Assembly (NCBI RefSeq): GCF_012034205.1 | Contig: NZ_JAATEM010000007.1 | Coordinates: 124,001 to 188,000, forward strand | Direction of reading: 5' to 3' | Length of the DNA stretch: 64,000 bases | Source of the DNA: Streptomyces composti | GTDB lineage: Bacteria > Actinomycetota > Actinomycetes > Streptomycetales > Streptomycetaceae | In this document: positions 31,487 through 33,940 of the stretch, one piece after another | How positions within the stretch are numbered: position 1 is the stretch's first letter | Layout: every line of letters starts with the position of its first letter | Made by a program: the position numbers and the translations under genes | The notes under the pieces: generated by a model | What the model was told of the DNA's origin: nothing | The model's input: the letters and a program-made list of their open reading frames with translations, nothing else | Database searches by the model: none

Positions 31487-32668
31487 GTGACCGCCCTGGA
31501 CGACGCCCGCGCCCTGCTCGCCGAGTTCCCCGTGGCCGACGGGCACAACGACCTGCCGTGGGCGCTGCGCCACACCGGCTACGACCTCGACGCCCGCGAC
31601 CTCACCGCCGACCAGTCCGCCCACCAGCACACGGACCTGCCCCGGCTGCGCTCGGGCGGGGTCGGCGCCCAGTTCTGGTCGGTGTACGTCCCCTCCGACC
31701 TGCCGGACCCGGTGCCCGCGACGCTGGAGCAGATCGACTGCGTACGGCAGTTGATCGAGCGGTATCCGAAGGAGCTGGCGCCCGCGCTGACCGCCGCCGA
31801 CATGGAGGCCGCACGCGGCGAGGGCCGCATCGCCTCCCTGATGGGCGCGGAGGGCGGCCACTGCATCGCCAACTCCCTCGGCACGCTGCGCGGCCTGTAC
31901 GCCCTGGGCGTCCGCTATCTGACGCTCACCCACAACCACAACGTGGACTGGGCGGACTCGGCGACCGACGAGCCCCGCGCGGGCGGCCTGACCGCCTTCG
32001 GGCGCGAGGTGGTGCGGGAGATGAACCGGCTCGGCATGCTGGTCGACCTCTCGCACGTCGCGGCGACGACCATGCGGGACGCGCTCGACGCCAGCGAGGC
32101 GCCGGTGCTCTTCTCGCACTCCTCCGCCCGCGCCGTCTGCGACCATCCGCGCAACATCCCCGACGACGTGCTGGAGCGGCTGCCCGCCAACGGCGGTGTC
32201 GCCATGGTGACGTTCGTGCCGAAGTTCGTCCTGCAGGCGGCCGTCGACTGGACCGCCGCGGCCGACGAGAACCTGCGCGCCCACGGCTTCCACCACCTCG
32301 ACACCAGCCCCGAGGCGATGAAGGTGCACGCGGCGTTCGAGGAACGCAACCCGCGCCCGGTCGCCACCGCGGCCACGGTCGCCGACCACCTGGACCACAT
32401 GCGCGAGGTCGCAGGCATCGACCACCTCGGCATCGGCGGCGACTACGACGGCACCGCCTTCACCCCCGACGGACTGCGTGACGTCTCCGGCTACCCGAAC
32501 CTCATCGCCGAGCTTCTCCAGCGGGGCTGGTCGAAGGCCGATCTCGCCAAGCTGACCTGGAAGAACGCGGTCCGGGTGCTGGGCGACGCGGAGGACGTGG
32601 CCCGCTCCCTGCGGGCGGTGCGCCCACCGTCCAACGCCACCCTGGAGGCTCTCGACGGCGGGCGGTGA
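31487..32668 (+). CDS. M19-family zinc dipeptidase (membrane/renal dipeptidase type)
   Basis: 393 residues from GTG 31487, five bases after purE. All binuclear zinc-site residues of the renal dipeptidase family are present: His20 and Asp22 (DGHNDLPW), bridging Glu122 (GAEGGH), His190 (DLSHVA), His211 (FSHSSAR) and Asp319 (GGDYDG). No signal peptide, so cytoplasmic, unlike the mammalian enzyme. The family hydrolyses dipeptides, often with a C-terminal D-residue. I recall that the equivalent S. coelicolor protein next to purE has been structurally characterised. A catalytically dead-looking paralogue follows. Confidence 0.93.
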
Positions 32669-32794
32669 GACGGGGCGGCCCGGTCCGTCCGGGTGGTACC
32701 CCGAACGCGCCGTCCACCAGGAAGCGACCCGGCACTCCGTGCGACGGTGACCCTGTTTGGATCACCACCGAGGTCACCACGTACGGAGCCCGCC

Positions 32795-33940
32795 ATGGCC
32801 GATCTCCAGGACGACCTGTACCCGGCCGGCGAGGTCGGCCGCGTCGACGAGCTGACCGAGCCGTACCCCGCCGAGGCCGTCGTCGTCCCGTCCGAGCCGT
32901 ACCAGCCGGTCTCCGACCCCGACGACGCGCCCCTGACCCGGGCCCGCGCCGTTCTGGCCGCGCACCCGGTGGCCGACGGCTACAGCGGACTGCCCTCGGC
33001 GCTGCGGCGGCTGCCCTACTACGACCTCGACCTGGGGGAGAGCGCCGTCGACACGGACGTCCCCCGGCTGCGCGAGGGGCAGGTCGGCGCGGTGTTCTGG
33101 TCGCTGCACCTGCCCGAGGGACCCGGCGCGCCGCGGGGCGATGACGCGGTCACCGCGACGCTGGACCAGCTGGACCTGGCGAAGGGCGTGGTCGCCGCGC
33201 ACGCGGACGGGCTGCGCCCGGCCCGCACCGCGGGGCAGGTCACCGACGCCCGCAACTGCGGCCGGGTCGCCGTGCTGTTCGGGCCCGCCCCGGCGGCCGC
33301 GCTCGGCGACTCCCTCGGCGTGCTGCGCTCCCTGCACACCCTCGGCCTGCGCGTGCTCACCCTGACCGGCACCAGCTGGGCGAGCGCGGCCGGTCTCACC
33401 CGGTTCGGCGAGGAGGTGGTGCGCGAGATGAACCGCGTCGGCATGATCGCCGACCTCTCCTACGCCTCCAGCGAGACCGTCCGGCGGGTGCTGACCGTGT
33501 CCAAGGCACCGGTGCTGTTCAGTCGCTCCGCCGCCCGCACCCTGCGCCCCCACCCGGCCAACCTGACGGACGACCTGCTGGCCGCCGTCGGCGAGGCGCG
33601 GGGCCTGGTGGCGGTGCCGCTGACCGCCGAGCAGACCGGACCGACGGTACGGGACGTCGCCGACCACCTGGACCATGTGCGCTCCCTCGCCGGCCCCGAG
33701 TGCGTCGGCCTCTCCGGCACCTACGACACCGGCAGTGCCCACCCCCAGGAGCTCAACGACACCTCCTGCTATCCGAGGCTCATCGCCGAACTGCTGCGCC
33801 GCGGCTGGGAGGAGTCCGAGGTGGCCCTGCTGACCTGGGGCAACGTCCAGCGCCTTCTGCGCGGCGCCGACTTCACGGCCCGCGCGGCGCAGCAGCGCCG
33901 CCCCCCGTCCACGGCCACCATCACCGACCTGGACGGGTGA
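32795..33940 (+). CDS. Dipeptidase-like pseudoenzyme (M19 fold without metal ligands)
   Basis: 381 residues from ATG 32795. It aligns throughout with the M19 dipeptidase just upstream but has an extra acidic/Pro N terminus of about 45 residues. Every metal-site residue is replaced: the His/Asp pair by Tyr63 and Gly65 (DGYSG), Glu by Ala165 (FGPAPA), the two later His by Tyr223 (LSYAS) and Arg244 (FSRSAAR), and Asp by Thr309 (SGTYDT). Spacings between these positions equal those in the active paralogue (102, 58, 21), so this is substitution without breakage. The frame is intact and codon use normal, so the gene is likely kept for a non-catalytic role such as binding or regulating the active enzyme. 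Confidence 0.85.
   Translation: MADLQDDLYPAGEVGRVDELTEPYPAEAVVVPSEPYQPVSDPDDAPLTRARAVLAAHPVADGYSGLPSALRRLPYYDLDLGESAVDTDVPRLREGQVGAVFWSLHLPEGPGAPRGDDAVTATLDQLDLAKGVVAAHADGLRPARTAGQVTDARNCGRVAVLFGPAPAAALGDSLGVLRSLHTLGLRVLTLTGTSWASAAGLTRFGEEVVREMNRVGMIADLSYASSETVRRVLTVSKAPVLFSRSAARTLRPHPANLTDDLLAAVGEARGLVAVPLTAEQTGPTVRDVADHLDHVRSLAGPECVGLSGTYDTGSAHPQELNDTSCYPRLIAELLRRGWEESEVALLTWGNVQRLLRGADFTARAAQQRRPPSTATITDLDG

Follow-up and report, generated by a model that had tools for sequence, protein, structure and literature searches.

Gene B (positions 32795 to 33940, forward strand) of the window, the whole 64,000-nucleotide stretch of Streptomyces composti DNA analysed here, encodes a metal-less protein of the M19 fold, 381 amino acids in length, which we read from its translation, its match to PF01244, its codon-model omega and its AlphaFold2 model as an old, selected and non-catalytic pseudo-dipeptidase. 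Most likely, although we hold this part of the reading at somewhat under even confidence, the protein would have as its partner, to bind or to regulate, the product of gene A, the M19 dipeptidase gene that precedes it.

The frame of B runs from an ATG at 32795 to a TGA at 33940 and its translation contains no internal stop; a ribosome-binding site, GGAG (32785 to 32788, forward strand), lies ahead of it in the sequence, at columns -10 to -7 of the aligned upstream regions, which are G/A-rich. The Peptidase_M19 profile (PF01244) recognized residues 54-356 of B with 280.7 bits, against a cut-off of 26, and A with 392.2 bits, which places B in the M19 family as a homologue. An AlphaFold2 model of B had a mean pLDDT of 81.8, with weak stretches at residues 1-32 (below 50) and 311-321. 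On structure comparison this predicted model was closest to Sco3058 (3itc; Z 45.4, rmsd 1.8 across 331 residues), the human dipeptidases DPEP1 (1itq) and DPEP3 gave Z scores of 43.9 and 42.9, and the top barrel from outside M19 reached a Z of 15.9. Retention of the M19 barrel by B is supported by the model.

Gene A (31487 to 32668, forward strand, GTG start) encodes an intact M19 dipeptidase that is a close homologue of Sco3058 (721 bits to PDB 3id7) and retains all six metal and catalytic residues: H20, D22, E122, H190, H211 and D319. A and B are 48% identical, and in the B protein of the window these six positions align with Tyr63, Gly65, Ala165, Tyr223, Arg244 and Thr309. An earlier note on this DNA had described B as a gene free of stops and with its fold intact, lying just after an active enzyme, with these six residues replaced and the spacing between them exactly that of the enzyme; the frame, the fold (as far as the predicted model goes) and the location all stand, and each of the six replacements was confirmed to the exact position by translation and alignment with A, but the claim about spacing does not hold. 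The intervals 63-65, 65-165 and 223-244 (B numbering) are the same in the two proteins, whereas from the Glu position to that of the first His it is 58 residues in B and 68 in A, and from the last His to the last Asp 65 in B and 108 in A, B being shorter in two loops, by about 10 residues (among them the substrate-loop His149 of A) and about 43 residues. At the column of the substrate-loop His, all 145 B copies have a gap.

Loss of the metal site extends to the whole B lineage. Alignments were built from M19 proteins of at least 300 amino acids (n = 315; 20 duplicates removed), from which the one broken B copy was excluded and in which one further B copy is cut by a contig end. Among the 145 distinct B copies, the Asp of the second position, the Glu and the last Asp never occur; counting all six residues, 128 copies keep none, 13 keep one and 4 keep two, and B thus lacks the binuclear metal site of active M19 enzymes (H-x-D, E, H, H) together with the catalytic Asp, which we take, by human renal dipeptidase, to be the sixth position and no direct ligand. 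Every one of the 148 A rows, three of which are other M19 proteins of the family, has the Glu, the two His and the final Asp, and all 147 rows that cover H20 and D22 have these as well; the full set H-D-E-H-H-D also occurs in each of 10 further actinobacterial M19 proteins from outside the genus (the best matches in the phylum sample), so that within the sample the loss is peculiar to the B lineage. M19 enzymes work by a two-zinc mechanism; given this established chemistry, B cannot use it, and from its sequence B has almost certainly lost catalytic activity. Two copies of a sister type, C, found in two genomes, have lost the metal site and kept the substrate loop, so the metal site was probably lost first and the loop later; judged by their sequences, the C copies are an intermediate stage of the loss.

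The vacated site has for the most part been filled anew with fixed residues (all coordinates on the forward strand). Tyr63 and Gly65 (32981 to 32989) take the places of His20 and Asp22 in A; 115 of the 145 copies have the Tyr and 130 the Gly. Ala165 (33287 to 33289) occupies the position of the bridging Glu122, with Ala in 131 copies and Val in 14, and Thr309 (33719 to 33721) that of Asp319, with Thr in 126 of 145 and Asp in none. Two arginines, Arg244 and Arg248, which align with His211 and Arg215 of A, give the former metal pocket a pair of basic residues (33524 to 33538; Arg in 131 and 119 of 145 copies, respectively), and His105 (33107 to 33109), which directly follows strand 2, corresponds to Tyr67 of A and is His in 123 of 145, likely lies close to the pocket. 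Tyr223 (33461 to 33463), at the His190 position, is a different matter: the earlier note was right to place a Tyr there in the window, but as a residue of the lineage it does not stand, the 145 copies having Gly in 135, His in 4, Tyr in 3, Asp in 2 and Cys in 1, and by this alignment the Tyr of the window is a local variant. In the main B branch the site has accordingly been re-fixed as Tyr63, Gly65, Ala165, Gly223, Arg244, Arg248 and Thr309, with His105 nearby, and Tyr63, His105, Arg244, Arg248 and Thr309 occur jointly in 92 of the 145 copies. A deep branch of 13 copies differs at the site and is mostly CTV-GNAA-like; the residues common to both branches lie outside the old site (L104, P107, P164, G192, L250, V304, L306, R356, F360 and R368).

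Human DPEP3 (PDB 6vgo) is likewise an M19 homologue with active-site changes, and it has a Tyr at the same His as the B protein of the window. Read against DPEP1 (human numbering), its loop His has become Phe, its His198 Tyr and its Asp288 Asn. DPEP3 keeps the equivalents of His20, Asp22, Glu125 and His219, all of which B has lost, and B therefore does not show a partial loss of the DPEP3 kind; convergence of the two was considered and set aside, the shared Tyr looking coincidental given its rarity among B copies.

Copies of B were sought in 297 genomes of the family, 153 of Streptomyces and 144 of other genera. At least 79 of the 153 Streptomyces genomes have a second copy (at least 76 a B gene without internal stops, at least one a broken B and at least two a type C gene), and among the matches listed none was seen in the other 74. 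No B was recognized among the matches listed for the 144 genomes of other genera, where the best match (6.8e-57) is a metal-intact M19 protein and the best matches fetched (14 loci) have their metal ligands intact, nor in 15 further genomes from the order; in a phylum sample of 100 genomes, B was recognized in two Streptomyces and in none of the 98 genomes of other genera. No second M19 match turned up (E 1e-8; none below 0.01) in 22 loci that lack B (11 from Streptomyces, 11 from other genera). Three loci from two genomes of a related genus hold another M19 branch, with its ligands intact and, in two of the three, Trp at the loop His.

In a tree from a quick search (92 rows), B forms one clade (SH-aLRT 99), with the two metal-less C copies as its sister (99), and B and C together split from A at the base of the A proteins of the family. 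This split is deeper than the genus-only distribution suggests; its exact root is not to be trusted, because the B branches are long, and an earlier duplication with losses in other genera is possible.

Codon models that allow for base composition gave an omega of 0.092 for B and 0.054 for A on the same 30 genomes, and a model held to an omega of 1 (and a kappa of 2) fitted B worse by 1785 log-likelihood units. On 61 genomes the values were 0.099 for B and 0.063 for A (GY, gamma) or 0.146 and 0.081 (MG2K); the 30 and 61 were drawn from 123 loci with both genes. The NG86 count points the opposite way (1828 pairs; median 0.43 for B and 0.23 for A, single pairs up to 0.99), but its ratios are unreliable at about 95% GC in third positions, the value for B being 0.95. 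Of the 77 B copies found in the genus sample, only one has internal stops, three in number; apparent stops in four other genomes disappeared when their open reading frames were re-read from the DNA. B is thus well supported, at the level of sequence, as a metal-less homologue kept by purifying selection, that is, as a pseudoenzyme. The earlier note had proposed as much, and had named a dN/dS near 1 or occurrence in one strain only as grounds for giving it up; omega for B, at 0.092 to 0.146, is far below 1, one copy in 77 was found broken, and at least 76 open B copies exist among the 153 Streptomyces genomes.

B has two further features of note. The first is an N-terminal tail, residues 1-44 (32795 to 32926, forward strand), which starts with a conserved MADLQD-like tag (114 of 146 rows) and continues as a variable linker, pLDDT being low at residues 1-32. 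The motif is absent as such in 32 of the 146 rows, comprising the broken copy, the copy cut by a contig end and 30 variants (MADLH, MADLK and MAELK among others); although the tag is conserved, the residues after it vary freely in sequence and length. The two C copies likewise begin MADL.

The second is a bipartite DNA element upstream of B (32698 to 32760, forward strand), a putative promoter or operator recognized in aligned upstream regions, which reads CCGAACG...CCACCAGGAAG...CGTGCGACGGTGAC (also given as CCGAACG...CCACCAGGAAG...CGTGCGACGGTG). Of 143 distinct regions upstream of B, 138 contain CGAACG and 140 an ACGGTG-like block; the spacing between the two is 41 or 42 nt in 127, while the distance from the element to the ATG varies, mostly from 76 to 128. 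The element stays with B: it was present in 11 of 11 readable cases, of 12 examined, in which B occurs without A in the fetched stretch, and it was not found within 1.5 kb after A in 22 loci that have no B. In the genome of the window the first block has one exact match and, with up to two mismatches, 52 matches against 15 for a reversed control; the bipartite pattern has three matches, two of them elsewhere in the genome, against one for the control. A structured RNA was considered and is not well supported, Rfam giving nothing near the gathering score (best E 4.5) and the consensus folding at only -1.7 kcal/mol, yet with no more than 4 of 200 column shuffles reaching as low a value; the element is therefore treated as DNA, in which a small hairpin is possible. 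We know of no regulator motif that makes a defensible match to it.

The link of B to A was approached through gene order and rates of change. The named loci are the best 80 of 566 and lean toward close relatives (79 Streptomyces and one labelled Kitasatospora aureofaciens). Typically purK and purE come first, then A and B, then two small genes on the opposite strand, a third small gene and a putative sugar-nucleotide dehydrogenase gene, the last four names being putative readings of the gene sequences; this order is complete in 53 of the 80. The two VOC queries match each other's genes, which makes the VOC order unreliable. In each of the 135 fetched loci that contain the two genes, B follows A on the same strand, at 500 bp or less in 97, a count that includes some genomes twice and four distances distorted by over-run A ends. 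A further 22 loci have B without A in the fetched stretch, several merely because the stretch is short. Of 75 named loci (from the best 80 of 566), 26 have more than 500 bp between A and B, and 19 of these 26 have a MerR-like reading frame in that gap; that frame is often accompanied by other open reading frames, four loci providing examples. Three genomes have an open B with A on another contig, four have B on the strand opposite to A, some 5-7 kb away, and in one the broken B lies 4.4 Mb from A. Wide gaps and copies on another contig or strand indicate that neither co-transcription nor adjacency is required.

Distances of A and B were correlated at 0.53, and at 0.49 after removal of purE, purK, UGD, two VOC genes and CGNR (43 of the 80 named loci, themselves the best 80 of 566). 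This partial correlation is the highest of 28 gene pairs at the locus (0.35-0.58 on subsampling), the best other partner of B reaching 0.21; however, UGD and CGNR, a pair without known interaction, come next with 0.42, and the co-variation of A and B is therefore suggestive only. Gene conversion was rejected as its cause, since identity between A and B of the same genome exceeds that across genomes by a mean of just 0.0015 (119 genomes). A folds without B, its homologue Sco3058 having been solved as a single protein. The earlier note had suggested that B may bind or modulate something, or sense a peptide. Taken together, adjacency and co-variation favour a link of B to A, a link that we propose tentatively from these sequence comparisons.

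The scheme that we prefer would begin with duplication of an A-like M19 gene to give the ancestor of B, followed by a single loss of the two-metal site in the B lineage, the barrel then being kept. In the main branch, metals and ligands would have been exchanged for the basic and aromatic set Tyr63, His105, Arg244, Arg248 and Thr309, and two loops trimmed. The rebuilt pocket could hold an anionic ligand, for example the carboxylate of a dipeptide, without cleaving it, such that B would bind rather than cut. The arginines of the pocket point to such a ligand in the main branch; for B we regard an anionic ligand as conceivable though doubtful, and the deep branch, of CTV-GNAA type, counts against this view of the pocket because the pocket residues are not conserved there. 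B would be tied to A either by joining it in a hetero-oligomer or by capturing ligands common to the two and presenting them; the MADLQD tail would serve for docking or control, and the conserved element upstream of B would be its own promoter and drive its expression. Counting against a partnership are that same separate element, the inserted genes and the open copies unlinked from A, from which it follows that B can also stand alone, and likewise the 74 Streptomyces genomes with no second copy among the matches listed.

Four other explanations were weighed and are taken in descending order of probability. The first, which we judge possible but again doubtful, takes B for a stand-alone sensor or carrier that binds a peptide-like or other anionic ligand in the rebuilt pocket and passes a signal, by way of its N-terminal tag, to some protein that is not A, the tie to A being one of descent only. 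It would account for the upstream element, which unlinked open copies keep, for the conserved tag and for B-specific conserved residues off the metal site, such as L104, P107, P164, G192, R356, F360 and R368; it sits less well with B usually remaining beside A and with A giving the strongest distance correlation in the locus.

It is considerably less probable that B has become a metal-independent enzyme, its barrel catalysing another reaction with the Arg, His, Tyr and Thr of the old pocket. Amidohydrolase-like barrels are versatile and the pocket residues are strongly conserved in the main branch, but no metal ligand set remains, and the CTV-GNAA-type pocket of the deep branch means that no catalytic set is common to the B lineage. 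A cryptic metallo-enzyme, with a metal held by other residues of B, could call on the B-specific histidines H57, H105 and H316; we consider it very improbable, as none of the 145 copies retains the Asp, the Glu or the last Asp of the old site and H57, which precedes strand 1, should on the model sit at the end of the barrel opposite the old site. Last, a decaying duplicate without function, suggested by the broken copy with its three stops, by the 74 Streptomyces genomes in which no second copy was seen among the matches listed and by pairwise distances about twice those of A (with the NG86 values given above), is rejected as scarcely credible, because omega is well below 1 (0.09-0.15) in codon models that allow for 95% GC3, the other fetched copies have no internal stop, and the tag, the B-specific residues and the upstream element are conserved.

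Several known proteins come close to B or to the A/B pair. Sco3058, the M19 dipeptidase of S. coelicolor (PDB 3id7, 3itc, 3s2j), shares fold and family with B (Z 45) but not the N-terminal tail that B has added, and B is without its metal and catalytic residues, its loop His and two of its loop stretches. DPEP3 is reportedly devoid of dipeptidase activity, going by the title of a paper on its structure. A passage of one review cites a complex of DPEP3 with TEX101, a precedent for an M19 protein as binding partner (PMC7555588), although passages there and in a second source list DPEP3 as an enzyme, contrary to that report (PMC7555588; PMC12283963). Mitochondrial processing peptidase and the M16B proteins differ from M19 in both fold and family. 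A section of one review describes how active and metal-less paralogues cooperate in the alpha and beta subunits of the mitochondrial enzyme and in prokaryotic M16B proteins, in bacteria from a two-gene operon (PMC11266112). As with A and B, genes for an active and an inactive paralogue lie side by side, B being elsewhere in exceptions; those proteins form a hetero-oligomer, whereas the A/B pair is known here from genes and the homologue of A was solved alone. CspC and CspA are subtilisin-like and unrelated to M19. These bacterial pseudoproteases of Clostridioides difficile are used as signal transducers (PMC12880746). Their function is known, while for B a function is here only proposed.

Pseudopeptidases and pairs of active and inactive metallopeptidases are thus already on record, as sections of the review cited for M16B attest (PMC11266112); M19, dipeptidase and DPEP3 are absent from the main text of this review of inactive metallopeptidase homologues (PMC11266112). 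Our search of the open-access literature found no report of an inactive bacterial M19 protein, no paper on SCO3057, only off-topic ones for Sco3058 and none linking DPEP3 to the term pseudopeptidase. New here are the conserved MADLQD-like tag at the N-terminus, the bipartite DNA element upstream of B and the co-variation in rate of A and B. Going further, B might be a genus-specific regulatory pseudo-dipeptidase whose pocket, once a catalytic site for two zinc ions and now arginine-based, senses L,D-dipeptides of cell-wall or other type, which modulates A or a further target through its tag, and which has its own transcription factor on the element with the 41/42 spacing; we consider this full picture unlikely as it stands. 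A label of 'dipeptidase' given on the basis of family would misstate the chemistry of B. With this lineage, 145 distinct natural sequences become available in which one and the same binuclear site has been lost, next to an active paralogue whose structure is solved and in genetically tractable bacteria, and, if it is true that B regulates A, the two would provide a simple model of an enzyme and pseudoenzyme pair born by duplication.
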